A stretch of 64,000 bases of DNA from Dictyoglomus turgidum DSM 6724. GTDB lineage: Bacteria; Dictyoglomota; Dictyoglomia; Dictyoglomales; Dictyoglomaceae. Both the position numbers and the translations under genes were made by a program. Below the pieces are notes generated by a model. It saw only the letters and a program-made list of their open reading frames with translations. It ran no database searches and was not told the DNA's origin. Where the stretch lies: NCBI RefSeq assembly GCF_000021645.1, contig NC_011661.1, positions 1,458,723-1,522,722 of the forward strand. Direction: 5' to 3'. Each line of letters begins with the position of its first letter. Position 1 is the first letter of the stretch. Positions 9,083-14,572 of the stretch are shown here, piece by piece.

Positions 9083-9111
9083 ATTATAGATATATTTAGG
9101 GGATTTGTCAA
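9083..9111 (-). promoter_or_regulatory. Consensus promoter of the GT4 unit
   Basis: Perfect TTGACA (9111-9106), 17-base spacer and perfect TATAAT (9088-9083). The predicted start near 9076 gives a leader of roughly 100 bases before ATG 8975. It is the strongest-looking promoter in the window. Confidence 0.82.
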
Positions 9112-9149
9112 CTATAAAAGAAGATTTGTCCTAAAAATCTTAGATGAGT

Positions 9150-9181
9150 AAAAAAGACAGTCTTTAGTAGTACTAAAAACT
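9150..9181 (-). terminator. Rho-independent terminator after the polysaccharide locus
   Basis: On the minus strand AGTTTTTAGT, loop ACT, ACTAAAGACT forms a 10-bp stem (one G-U pair), followed after three bases by six Ts. It lies 50 bases beyond the stop of the deacetylase-like pseudogene and just before the GT4 promoter, separating the two units. Confidence 0.7.
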
Positions 9182-9230
9182 TACCACAAAATAAATCTAG
9201 TAGTTAATTTATCTATTAACCCGCTTCTAC

Positions 9231-11052
9231 TTAATTAAAAAAGATGTCAAGCTTATTAGCAGAAAAAGCTTTCGTAATAGTAATATATTGATAACCTTCC
9301 TCTTCTTTCAGAGTAACTCCATAGGGAAGATCTTTTATAACAAAATCCTTAGGAAGGGCAAGAGTTATACCTTCTAAACCTTCTTTGTTTACTATAGTTA
9401 TTCTCTTGTTAGAAAAGTTAATACTATATTTAGTATTCAGAAATCTAAGAAGCAAAGTAGCAAAGTATGACATAGGTTTTACTTGAATAATACCTTTATT
9501 TTTCAAAGTGTTTACATAATCCCAAAATTCTCTAAGAGCATTAGGATATAAAGGAATATCATACGGATGTGAATATATAAGTCTCAAAGTGCGATTTTTA
9601 ACCACATAATATACAATTGAAAAGAGCCATCTCTTAACCTCATCCTCGGTTTTCCCACCTTTTTTCACTTCCAAAAAAGAAGCATACTTACCAAATGAAG
9701 ATATTGGAAAAGCTATAACTTTATGAGACACCATTTTACCATTTATAAAAGTTCTATTAGGAGAGGATCCATTATCTCCTGTATAATAATAGCAAAGCAT
9801 GCCTAATTTTTCTAAAACTTTTGTGGTTATAGGCTGAGGATGTACACCGTTAGGAGCAGAATATTCTAAAATCTTATAGTTTGTTATATTTTCCAAACAC
9901 TCATTGTTCCTCAAAATATACTCGTAAATTTCCTTTTCTCCAAAAATTCCTTTCAGGATATTATCTGAAAAGAAGTTATGTGCCCCCCCACCATGGGAAC
10001 CTATAACTCCAAAATTAAGAATCATTTTTACATATTTTTTACCTTCTCCACAAGCATCAAACCCCAACTTATCTCCTTGTTTATCTCTAAAATCTCCCGC
10101 AGTTATATGAATAGAATATTCGATTCCTTTTCTTAGATAATTATTCTGTAGCATATAAGGAATACTTTTCCAATCAATACTTGAATCCACATGCCAGTTT
10201 ATCACAATCCCACCTATTCCATATGGAGTATTTAAAAGATGAGGAATTTTCAAAATCTTAAAGAGAAAAACTCTTAAAAAGGTTCTAATAGGAAAATCAT
10301 CAGCATAAGCCTTCAGGTGTCCCAAGGGAAGATTTACATACATCACTTTCCCACGGCTATAATTTCTTATTATAATTCCAGGATATTTTTTTCCATCTTG
10401 AGAAATTGTCAGCGCATAAATTTCATTCTCTTTAATATCTTTTTCTTCCTCTACTCTAACTATAGGATATTCAAGATTTCCATAAGCATAACCCCCTAAA
10501 AGATTTTCTTTTTCTAACTTACCATCTGGTATCTCTAAAAATTCTTTCCGAGTTTTATCTATATATAAGTATCCTAAGGTGAAACAGGAAACCTTATATT
10601 TTTTATTATGTGATATAATTTGCTCCCACAAATTCAGAAAACAAAGCCTTTTCAAGATATTCATTTTTGAAATCTTTTATCCCTGCATCATAACTCACAA
10701 AAATATTTCCTCCATAAGAAAGATAGTTCCTTACCCATGGCCCTGCTTCTTTCGGCAAATACTAATTTAAACCATTAGGAAATATAATTATTTTCTTAAA
10801 GTCTGCAACTATTTTAGGATCAAAAGTGATTAAATTAAAAATACTCACTTCTTTATAAATAACACCTTCTTCCTCCAAAACACTTCTATAAGCATTCATT
10901 ATATAAGAATGTTCTTTAAGAAAGTTGGGATTATAAACAATCAATACTGCAAAATCTTTTCCCCATAGAGAATATATTTCCAAAAGATTTTTAAAGGAAA
11001 ATAAAAATATAACTACAAGAATTAAAAACAAAAAGACCAAAAACTTTTTCAA
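9231..11052 (-). pseudogene. Broken exported polysaccharide deacetylase-like gene (nonsense plus frameshift)
   Basis: Three pieces of one gene. Piece 1 starts at TTG 11052, overlapping the upstream stop as TTGA; it has an N-terminal membrane anchor (FLFLILVVIFLFSF) and ends at TAG 10764-10762. The same frame continues past that stop with sensible sequence (YLPKEAGPWVRNYLSYGGN) to TAA 10608-10606. The remaining coding sense lies in another frame, open from ATG 10664 for 477 codons, and carries NodB-like motifs: NWHVDSS, GSHGGGAHN and YSAPNGVHPQP. It probably acted on an exported polysaccharide made by the adjacent GT2. The long 3' piece could still be translated alone but would lack its anchor. 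Confidence 0.78.
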
Positions 11053-11547
11053 TTTACTTTACCCTCTCCTTCTGTCATCATATAACCATATACCTTTACT
11101 TTTCCTTTAATATGTATCCCCTTTTTCTCTATAGCCGATTTTATTTTTCCTTTTTCTCCAATTTCAGAATTATTTTCCAAAACTACTTTACCTTGAGAGA
11201 AAACATTCCCCTTTTATAGTCACATTTTCTCCTGTTTTTAAATCGCCCAACATATATATAATTTTATTTAGCTCCATTCCAGAAGGAATGCTATCTATAT
11301 GGTAGATTTTAATATCTTCACCATGAAAATCCAAAATTCCTGTCCCGTCCAATGCTTTTAAGACATCCTCAATTTTTATTGTCTCATGCAACTTTCTCTT
11401 AAAAGACTCGGAAAAATACCTAGGATTTCTGGAATAATTAAAATCAATTGGCAAAGGCAAAATATCTCTAGGATTGAGATATTCTTTTATACTTGGCAGG
11501 AAAGGAAATAGGAGAAATAAAAGAAAAATAAGGGTTATGAGCAGCAA
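11049..11547 (-). pseudogene. Frameshifted membrane-anchored beta-helix (bactofilin-like) protein gene
   Basis: The intact frame from 11547 encodes 119 residues: a hydrophobic anchor (LLITLIFLLFLLFPFL), a middle domain, and the start of a short-repeat beta-helix (TGENVTIKG), ending at TAA 11190-11188. Removing one G from the GGGG run at 11211-11208 restores a frame that continues the repeat naturally (NVFSQGKVVLENNSEIG, then KGIHIKGKVKVYGYM) to TGA 11051-11049, which overlaps the next gene's TTG start. The assignment to a bactofilin-like fold is by repeat pattern only. The start lies 13 bases inside the GT2 gene. Confidence 0.72.
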
Positions 11548-12734
11548 TTTACATCTCCCCCATTTCTAAATCTTTCAGTTTTATGCCAAACAGGATCTCT
11601 TCTAGTAATTAAATCTAATACTGAATCAAAAAAACCTAAAGAGGAATACCACATATTGAAGAAAAAATTGAAAAGTGGTAGTGGCAAAAGAAATATCCTA
11701 TAAGTTGCTCCATCGAGGAGAGCTCCTAATCCAATTTCATAAAAAGGAGCAAAATTTCCAAAGGTATTATATGCAGAAAGAAAAATAAAAAAACTACTAC
11801 CTAAAATCTGCATTTCTCCTAAGAAGAAAAGAACAATAGAATCTACCAATCCAATAAGAAAAAGAGGGGAAATTAAGTATACACAAAGGAGAAATACACC
11901 GTCAACCTTTTCTCTTAAAGAAAGATAAGGAGATTTGATAAGTGGTAATAAATATCTGAACATAACTTGATTATGGCCGCGAGACCACCTTCTTATCTGC
12001 TTTGCTCTCACTTCCCATGTTTCTGGTGCTTCTTCATAACATTCTGCTCTATTCGTATAACAAACTTTTACCCCATTAATATATGCCTTAATTGTTAATT
12101 CAGTATCTTCTGCAAGAATTTTGGGATTAAAACCACCCAATTTTAAGATTAGCTCTTTTCTAAATCCTCCTACTGTACCTCCAAATTGAGGAATAAGCTT
12201 TAAATTATATCTTGCCTGTTGATCTACCTGATATCCTCCAATTCTTTCAAGATCAAAGAGTCTTGTAAGAAGATTCTTAGATATATTTAAAGGTACTACT
12301 CTTCCCATTACTACTCCTACTTCGGGATCTAAGAAAGAAACAGCAAGATCTCTAATAATCCCTTTGGGAGGAATATAATCCGCATCAAAAACAATAATAA
12401 TTTCCCCTTCTGCTACTTTTAAAGCATCATTAAGGGCCGACGGTTTTCCTCTTGGAAGATAAGATCCTCTATATAAAGGCTTAATAAGATGAGGATACTT
12501 ACTGCTATAATCTTCTAATATTTCTCTTGTTCTATCAGTAGAATTATCATCTATAGGAATAATTTCTATTCTATCCTTAGGATAATCTGTATTAAGCAAG
12601 GCGTTTAAAACATTCTCTGCTACCTTTTCTTCATTATGCATTGGAACGAGTACACTTACATAAGGTAAATCTGAATCTATAATATCCTGATATCCAAGTC
12701 TCTGTTCTCCAAAAGCTCTATTAAGTGTAAACAA
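11535..12734 (-). CDS. Processive family 2 glycosyltransferase, probably 5'-truncated by frameshift
   Basis: Membrane polysaccharide synthase core of 399 residues. GT2 motifs are all present: IDDNSTDRTREIL, DADY (DXD), AEDTELT and QIRRW, preceded by VSVLVPMHNEE and followed by several membrane helices. YQVDQQARYNL is characteristic of one exopolysaccharide-synthase subfamily. The only usual start is TTG 12734, without a ribosome site. The frame is open upstream to 12809 and reads NTSLYALRHFLF, the normal family lead-in. The expected N-terminal membrane helices are in a different frame (12763-13197), so the gene was probably longer. Confidence 0.8.
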   Translation of the reverse strand: MFTLNRAFGEQRLGYQDIIDSDLPYVSVLVPMHNEEKVAENVLNALLNTDYPKDRIEIIPIDDNSTDRTREILEDYSSKYPHLIKPLYRGSYLPRGKPSALNDALKVAEGEIIIVFDADYIPPKGIIRDLAVSFLDPEVGVVMGRVVPLNISKNLLTRLFDLERIGGYQVDQQARYNLKLIPQFGGTVGGFRKELILKLGGFNPKILAEDTELTIKAYINGVKVCYTNRAECYEEAPETWEVRAKQIRRWSRGHNQVMFRYLLPLIKSPYLSLREKVDGVFLLCVYLISPLFLIGLVDSIVLFFLGEMQILGSSFFIFLSAYNTFGNFAPFYEIGLGALLDGATYRIFLLPLPLFNFFFNMWYSSLGFFDSVLDLITRRDPVWHKTERFRNGGDVNCCS

Positions 12735-12762
12735 AAAGTGCCTGAGAGCATATAGAGAAGTA

Positions 12763-13197
12763 TTAATATATCCATTTCCATGCCTCTTCAGTTTTCTGCA
12801 ATTTTTTAGCTATAATACCCACATAAAAAGAATACGTGCCAACAACATAGCTAAAATCTATAAAGAGGCCAAAAATAAAATAAAGAGGAGCAGAGAAAAT
12901 ATAGGAAAAATTTAAAAGAGTATGCATGAAAAAAGCATATCTAACGGATCCAAAAATAATAGAATAAGATAGAGTGAGAAAAACAATTAGAAACTTTGTT
13001 AAAAAACTAGATGGAATTGGAATTAAAGCTATACCCATAATTATCGGAATAAAAATCCAAACTCCAATTTGAGTATTCATATAAAGTTCTGAAAAGATTT
13101 TTATATTATATGGAAATTTTGATGGAAAAAGAAGAAAGAAAATAGATAAGGATACTTTCCAGGAAAATCTAAGATGTATATATCTTTTAAAATACCA
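12763..13197 (-). pseudogene. Detached N-terminal membrane segment of the GT2 synthase
   Basis: Open frame after TGA 13200-13198; its first ATG is 13080, giving 105 codons. The product is almost entirely hydrophobic, with about three or four membrane helices (for example LTKFLIVFLTLSYSIIFGSV), ending KTEEAWKWIY then TAA at 12765-12763. The last codons abut, one frame off, the sequence NTSLYALRHFLF that leads into the GT2 domain. I infer that a single-base indel near 12755-12768 separated the two. It could instead be a genuine small membrane protein. Confidence 0.55.
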
Positions 13198-13213
13198 TCA
13201 ATCTTTACTATTT

Positions 13214-13354
13214 TTACATCCTGGAGAGAATAAGGAAAAGAATTATTTCAAAGGGTAACACTAATAGAAGAAGATAAAATATAAAGTTCCTACCTATGGA
13301 GGGAAACTTCCTATAAGCTCTATGGTAAGGAATAAATCTTTCTTTTTTGTCCAT
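13214..13354 (-). pseudogene. 46-codon membrane ORF, likely 5' remnant of the polysaccharide locus
   Basis: The ATG at 13354 lies 2 bases after the aroQ stop; the product has a basic N-terminus (MDKKERFIPYHRAYRKFPS) and one strong membrane helix (FIFYLLLLVLPFEIILFLIL), and ends at TAA 13216-13214. Beyond the stop, a frame offset by two reads VKIVKIDGILKDIYILDFPG, then coding sense seems to pass to the frame of the next fragment. The pattern fits a decayed larger gene, but a real micro-membrane protein cannot be excluded. About 16 bases separate it from the next open frame. Confidence 0.5.
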
Positions 13355-13356
13355 AT

Positions 13357-13794
13357 TTATTTATTAAAATACAAAAAAATAGCTTCTAAGGCTAATAAAT
13401 AACTATTAACTCCAAAGCCTGATATCTGCCCTAAAGCAACAGGAGCTATAACGGAATGATGACGGAATTCTTCCCTTTTATAAATATTACTTATATGGAC
13501 TTCTATTACAGGTTTTCCAAAGGCCAATAAAGCATCTCTTAAGGAATAACTATAATGGGTTAAGGCTCCTGGATTTATAATTATGGCATCTGCCCAATCT
13601 CTATACTCTTGAATCCAATCTATAAGTTGTCCTTCAAAATTGGACTGTTTTATTTCTACCTCTATTTCTCTTTCTTTTGCCTTTTGTAATATTAAATTAT
13701 TAAGAGTTTGAAAATCTACTCTCCCATAAATATTTGGCTCTCTTACCCCCAAAAGATTTAAATTAGGACCATGTAAAACTAATACTTTAATCAT
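13357..13794 (-). CDS. aroQ: 3-dehydroquinate dehydratase, type II
   Basis: Dehydrates 3-dehydroquinate to 3-dehydroshikimate in the shikimate pathway. The 145-residue length is typical of the dodecameric type II enzyme. Seen: LVLHGPNLNLLGVREPNIYG at the N-terminus including the catalytic loop Tyr, QSNFEGQLIDWIQ, INPGALTHYSYSLRDAL, and EVHISNIYKREEFRHHSV with the catalytic His. It overlaps the end of aroK by 8 bases. Confidence 0.96.
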   Translation of the reverse strand: MIKVLVLHGPNLNLLGVREPNIYGRVDFQTLNNLILQKAKEREIEVEIKQSNFEGQLIDWIQEYRDWADAIIINPGALTHYSYSLRDALLAFGKPVIEVHISNIYKREEFRHHSVIAPVALGQISGFGVNSYLLALEAIFLYFNK

Positions 13795-14305
13795 CTCTTA
13801 ACCTCTCAATAATCTCAAAAGTTATTTCATCTATATCTTTATTATCTACTTCAACAATAATATCTGCGCAGGATTCATATAAAGGTAGTCTCTTTTTCCA
13901 CAAATTGTATAATTCTTCTCTTCCTTTCTTTAAAAGAGGTCTCTTCTCATGTTCTTCTTTGTTTTCTAAATGTTTCATCAAATTTTCAAATTCTCCTTTT
14001 AGATATATAACTTTACTTTTTTCTCTTAAAATCCTTCTATTTTCCTCTCTAAGAACAACTCCTCCTCCTGTGGAAAGGACTATCTTAGGATAAAGAGAAA
14101 AAGCTTCTCTTAAAGACTCTGTTTCGATATTTCTGAAATACTCTTCTCCTTTTTCTATAAATATATCAGAGATGGATTTTTTTAATTTTTTTTCTATATA
14201 CTCGTCTAAATCCAAAAAAGGAATATTAAAAAAAAGGGAAATCCTCTTCCCTATGCTAGTTTTCCCACTTCCCATAAAGCCAACAAAAGAAAGGGAAGAT
14301 CTCAT
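13787..14305 (-). CDS. aroK: Shikimate kinase
   Basis: Phosphorylates shikimate with ATP. 172 residues. P-loop GFMGSGKTSIGK near residues 8-19, substrate Asp in DLDEYIEKK, GEEYFRNIETESL, STGGGVVLREENR near 78-90, and the lid Arg in KRPLLKKG. Its ATG shares a base with the stop of the small DUF4044-like gene (TAATG), so translation is coupled. It forms a shikimate pair with aroQ. Confidence 0.95.
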   Translation of the reverse strand: MRSSLSFVGFMGSGKTSIGKRISLFFNIPFLDLDEYIEKKLKKSISDIFIEKGEEYFRNIETESLREAFSLYPKIVLSTGGGVVLREENRRILREKSKVIYLKGEFENLMKHLENKEEHEKRPLLKKGREELYNLWKKRLPLYESCADIIVEVDNKDIDEITFEIIERLRDD

Positions 14306-14430
14306 TATCTACCAATAAAATACATACCCCAGATTATAAAGATACTTAAAAGGAAAAACACAGCTACAACAGCAGCAACTATTCTAATAGCTCTTTCCCT
14401 CTTCTCTTTCTTAGATCTTGGTTTTGCCAT
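14305..14430 (-). CDS. 41-residue single-pass membrane protein (DUF4044-like)
   Basis: Short gene encoding a very basic N-terminus (MAKPRSKKEKRERAIR) followed by one membrane helix (about residues 17-37, containing VAAVVAVFFLLSIFIIWG). This layout matches the small DUF4044-type proteins seen near shikimate and translation genes; function unknown. It ends in TAATG shared with aroK and begins 3 bases after the stop of the Cys-rich protein. The positive N-terminus predicts an N-in topology. Confidence 0.7.
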   Translation of the reverse strand: MAKPRSKKEKRERAIRIVAAVVAVFFLLSIFIIWGMYFIGR

Positions 14431-14433
14431 ATC

Positions 14434-14559
14434 TTACCCCTCCGAATTATAGCCTTCTTTAACATCATAACATTCATTGTAGTGAGGACATTTAGAGCAA
14501 CATCCTACCTTATGATTTAGACACTCTTTATAATATGGACAATCCTCACAACAAAACAT
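14434..14559 (-). CDS. 41-residue cysteine-rich protein with two CC-x2-CP-x-Y-x2-C repeats
   Basis: Short gene with a good AAAGGAGG ribosome site five bases before ATG 14559. The product holds two near-identical units, CCEDCPYYKEC (residues 3-13) and CCSKCPHYNEC (20-30), giving eight cysteines and also His. The duplicated spacing suggests two metal sites or one shared cluster (zinc or Fe-S), which is inference. It lies between speE and the DUF4044-like gene in the polyamine-shikimate run. I do not recognise a named family. Confidence 0.68.
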   Translation of the reverse strand: MFCCEDCPYYKECLNHKVGCCSKCPHYNECYDVKEGYNSEG

Positions 14560-14572
14560 AAAAACCTCCTTT

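Follow-up and report, generated by a model that had tools for sequence, protein, structure and literature searches.

A decayed exopolysaccharide gene module, very probably imported together with aroK-aroQ, in Dictyoglomus turgidum

Among described systems, Pga/Ica (PgaC/IcaA, PgaB/IcaB, PgaD) and NfrBA/WecB come closest to the locus studied here, and for one of its proteins the bactofilins (PF04519) have to be considered as well. NfrBA/WecB of E. coli is a glycan system that acts as the receptor of phage N4 and comprises a synthase, an outer-membrane protein and a UDP-GlcNAc 2-epimerase (PMC8669469). A literature search for the module described below, or for a Dictyoglomus exopolysaccharide, found nothing on the locus. 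The analysed stretch, called the window in the following, covers 64,000 nucleotides of the one-contig genome of Dictyoglomus turgidum DSM 6724 (1,855,560 bases), whose closest complete relative is D. thermophilum (G002; 1,959,987 bases). We regard it as very likely that the window carries a pseudogenised four-gene module of a synthase-dependent exopolysaccharide system, which was imported with aroK-aroQ and decayed afterwards, and that the pathway is dead in D. turgidum.

Between aroQ (13357-13794) and position 9231, the open frames are a string of fragments. Protein-to-DNA alignment against intact relatives, with frame changes allowed, resolves them into four adjacent broken genes (window 13354-9231, - strand) with six independent lesions. 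In D. turgidum, the gene order is membrane protein, GT2 synthase, left-handed-beta-helix (LbH) protein and deacetylase. A previous sequence-only reading had placed frame switches or stops at six positions of this region, and the alignments reveal lesions at all of them. Its three pieces, a GT2 synthase, a beta-helix protein and a NodB-like deacetylase, are recovered here, all as pseudogenes, while its inventory missed the fourth broken gene, the membrane protein. The comparison with intact orthologous loci which it proposed proved informative, as G004 and other relatives identify both the module and its lesions. No second copy of the module was found elsewhere in the D. turgidum genome.

The first gene (12763..13354, - strand) encodes a polytopic membrane protein of about 250-280 aa when intact, as is the case in L035, L047, L054 and L057. 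It carries two frame changes with deletions, one at approximately 13214-13230 with 14-19 codons missing and one at approximately 13147 with 42-43 codons missing. Structure prediction for the membrane protein was of low confidence (pLDDT 58). The GT2 synthase pseudogene (11535..12781, - strand) retains an open catalytic domain (12758-11535), severed from the native start at 12781 by deletion of the N-terminal segment. Within 12747-12781, the frame of the native start is out of register with the catalytic frame, and the first ~13-18 residues are gone. Profile search assigns the domain to PF00535/PF13641, and the processive-GT2 motifs DADY, AEDTE and QIRRW, conserved in nearly all relatives, are found in the fragment. 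The best NCBIfam model is PgaC/IcaA (TIGR03937), with 101.8 bits for the window sequence and 135 bits for G004, both far under the cut-off of 422.3.

The bactofilin-like LbH pseudogene (11049..11547, - strand), in origin the gene of a scaffold-like protein, has lost about 130 codons and has a frame change near 11200 (lesion at ~11193-11205). The NodB-like deacetylase pseudogene (9231..11052, - strand) is interrupted by a TAG stop at 10764-10762 and by a frame change at ~10605, and its conserved motif HGGWAHN is altered to HGGGAHN. With PF01522 (CE4), the G004 deacetylase passes the cut-off of 23.1 bits (28.3 bits), whereas the D. turgidum and Aquificaceae deacetylases stay below it (14.6 bits). 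For the predicted structure of the Aquificaceae deacetylase (pLDDT 86), the fold matches include enzymes of GH42/GH164 as well as ArnD and a putative polysaccharide deacetylase; a sequence search of the deacetylase against solved structures gave no useful match.

Broken frames may in principle be sequencing or assembly errors in an operon that is really intact and functional, and the frame change at ~10605 indeed adjoins a run of A, where 454 sequencing errs. However, the genome was read with 20x Sanger plus 20x 454 coverage (PMC5167688). The missing stretches of ~14-19, 42-43 and ~130 codons and the lost N-terminal segment of the synthase are beyond the reach of base-calling error, one lesion is a nonsense substitution, and 62 neighbouring genes are free of comparable errors. 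Multi-codon deletions with frame change in a Sanger/454 genome thus leave sequencing error unable to explain the locus, and we consider it extremely improbable. The 62 genes are the D. thermophilum orthologues lying wholly inside the window, two of the 64 being left out of the intactness count as they cross the window ends. For each of them, one frame spans 91-100% of the gene, which means that the damage is confined to the polymer locus; the earlier statement that no other gene of the window is damaged is borne out. Under the assumption of independent, uniform lesions, all six would land by chance within 4.1 of ~62 kb with a probability of around 1e-7.

Leave-one-out counts of private changes at otherwise invariant columns yield 3.6% for the GT2 and 7.1% for the C-part of the deacetylase, within the range of intact relatives. 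Since private changes do not exceed those of intact relatives, relaxed selection is evident from the lesions and not from substitutions. The conserved residues are mostly still present, which qualitatively suggests that the inactivation may be recent and gives no date. The small number of substitutions at invariant positions would also fit fragments that are still in use, either because the GT2 catalytic domain is translated from the TTG at 12734, inside the gene, and acts as a transferase, or because the locus is phase-variable. The fragment offers 399 codons without lesion and every catalytic motif for such a role, but it has neither its native start nor its first membrane segment. Moreover, all three partner genes are broken, two of them by large deletions irreversible by slippage, and continued use of the fragments therefore appears unlikely. 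Programmed frameshifting or phase variation as such is ruled out by the large deletions.

The neighbourhood of the broken module points to its origin. Directly upstream, aroQ (type II dehydroquinase, PF01220; - strand) and aroK (shikimate kinase; 13787..14305, - strand) are intact and xenologous, both being of sister-genus type. Identity of aroK is 71.5% to G006 versus 53.0% to D. thermophilum; that of aroQ is 83-85% to the sister genus g2 (85.4% to G006) versus 70.1% to D. thermophilum. The flanks are of Dictyoglomus type, with speE 89% and a GT4-like gene 81% identical to D. thermophilum. In a tree of aroK plus aroQ, D. turgidum is nested in g2 with support of 100/98, and the AU test rejects (p=0.008) a tree that keeps its aroKQ within its own genus. 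By contrast, speE groups D. turgidum with its own genus.

An empty site is seen in the congeners G001, G002 (D. thermophilum) and G003, in which ~190-270 bases separate aroQ from the GT4-like gene behind it; D. turgidum has the 4.1 kb module in this place. Junction alignments show that similarity switches at the aroK start codon at one end. At the other end, which is the right edge of the import, it switches shortly before the TTGACA-17-TATAAT promoter (9083..9111, - strand) from which the downstream GT4-like gene would be read and which is conserved in D. thermophilum. Together with the identities per gene, these alignments delimit an import tract of ~5.2 kb (9110..14305), comprising aroK-aroQ and the module. 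Neither convincing direct repeats at the tract ends nor convincing remnants of mobile elements were found. Beyond the tract, the gap between speE and aroK (window 14306-14572) apparently holds two small conserved frames, one of them Cys-rich, which are common to D. thermophilum and G003.

The aroKQ of g2 type, the empty sites of the congeners and the sharp junctions are all accounted for by one import of ~5.2 kb. In the simplest history, the locus came in by horizontal transfer and is not ancestral to the species. A history of loss only would have the module ancestral to Dictyoglomus, cleanly deleted in three congeners and still decaying in D. turgidum. Relatives of the module do occur in two of the four g1 genomes and in G004, but the aroKQ adjoining the module is of g2 type, and the module is absent from G001, G002, G005 and G006. 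In addition, the copies in G003 sit elsewhere and group with Aquificota/Nitrospirota copies, not with D. turgidum, such that we judge this history to be very unlikely. The recent loss of a capsule or biofilm polymer claimed by the sequence-only reading may stand, in a qualitative sense, as a recent inactivation of the genes, given the lesions and mostly kept conserved residues, but with the empty site of the congeners and the g2-type aroKQ, what decayed appears to be an imported and not an ancestral locus.

The following course of events is proposed for the import. A single tract of ~5.2 kb would have entered the D. turgidum ancestor, probably via homologous recombination in the flanks, with a near relation of the sister genus as its donor. 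The imported aroKQ would have displaced the resident pair and remained under selection. The module would have acquired its lesions afterwards: two membrane-gene deletions with frame changes, the 5' deletion of the synthase, the large LbH deletion, and the nonsense codon and frame change of the deacetylase. Whereas the aroKQ xenology, the empty sites and the sharp junctions are direct results, we infer the single event and the donor gene order. The branching of a GT2 tree around D. turgidum singles out no donor, and in G004 the module is on a different contig from aroQ. By analogy with its family, an intact GT2 would polymerise a nucleotide-sugar across the inner membrane in PgaC/PgaB-type or NfrB-type fashion, with units probably of GlcNAc or ManNAc type, and an intact deacetylase would remove N-acetyl groups in the periplasm. 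The product would have been a putative polymer, probably of N-acetyl-hexosamine, of a synthase-dependent system. From a biological point of view, the locus shows a gene import caught mid-history, in which aroK-aroQ, two core biosynthesis genes, and an optional surface-polymer operon most likely co-arrived, with decay limited to the operon.

A second Dictyoglomus, the MAG G003, holds two module copies of Aquificota type (L034 1-3726; L036 1-3109), which the tree places with copies of an Aquificaceae MAG and of a Thermodesulfovibrionales MAG. Both are damaged: in one, the deacetylase lacks ~158 residues and has a frame change; in the other, frame changes affect the membrane gene and the GT2. Their placement suggests that they would have been acquired separately from the D. 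turgidum module. The G+C content of the G003 copies (30-31%) agrees with that of another contig of G003 (31%) and differs from that of the Aquificaceae locus (39%). There is a small probability of mis-binning, as the Aquificaceae MAG may share its sample with G003 (the isolate names of both start with S1_Bin).

In G004, a member of the sister genus, all four genes are intact but rotated, with LbH and deacetylase ahead of membrane protein and GT2. When the deacetylase was used to scan 84,980 species genomes, 14 loci emerged, which belong to Aquificota, Nitrospirota, Zixibacteria, Cloacimonadota, Acidobacteria, unnamed bacteria and a single Dictyoglomus MAG. All 10 other contigs with the full set of four share the order membrane protein, GT2, LbH, deacetylase. 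One Cloacimonadales contig (L053 6-3172) has two tandem deacetylase homologues. Among the neighbours in one Aquificaceae MAG and one Zixibacteria MAG are a UDP-GlcNAc 2-epimerase (identified by inspection in Zixibacteria), a putative hydrolase and the outer-membrane barrel YaiO. Inspection of the Hydrogenobacter locus shows a matching gene set. The resulting seven-gene neighbourhood (epimerase, YaiO barrel, membrane protein, GT2, LbH, deacetylase, putative hydrolase) spans L046 2137-9809, L047 3554-11598 and L048 2083-9586, with YaiO adjoining the module in L046 and L047. YaiO, the type of outer-membrane exporter covered by the search, is absent from G000-G004. The loci suggest that thermophiles share a conserved polymer system of four to seven genes, of which we found no description. 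Somewhat speculatively, all seven genes may form an undescribed mobile synthase-dependent exopolysaccharide system that spreads among thermophilic and deep-branching phyla and was repeatedly gained and then inactivated in Dictyoglomus, like surface polymers under shifting selection, e.g., by phage.

Compared with the known systems, the module resembles Pga/Ica in its processive membrane GT2, for which PgaC/IcaA is the top NCBIfam match, and in having a NodB-like deacetylase and a small membrane partner. It differs in that its GT2 reaches 102-135 bits where the model requires 422, and in that its deacetylase has a long N-terminal part and a model matching GH42/GH164 as well as NodB-type folds. 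The module moreover adds an LbH protein, and no PgaA-type exporter is seen within it. The three roles of NfrBA/WecB recur in Aquificaceae and Zixibacteria, whose seven-gene version has GT2, YaiO and PF02350 for them, but the module GT2 (~420 aa) is too short for an MshEN c-di-GMP domain, the module has a deacetylase and an LbH protein, and G000-G004 are without YaiO. Finally, the LbH protein gives a weak profile match to bactofilins, from which it differs by scores of 13.7-19.6 bits versus the Pfam cut-off of 27.9 and by an N-terminal hydrophobic segment.
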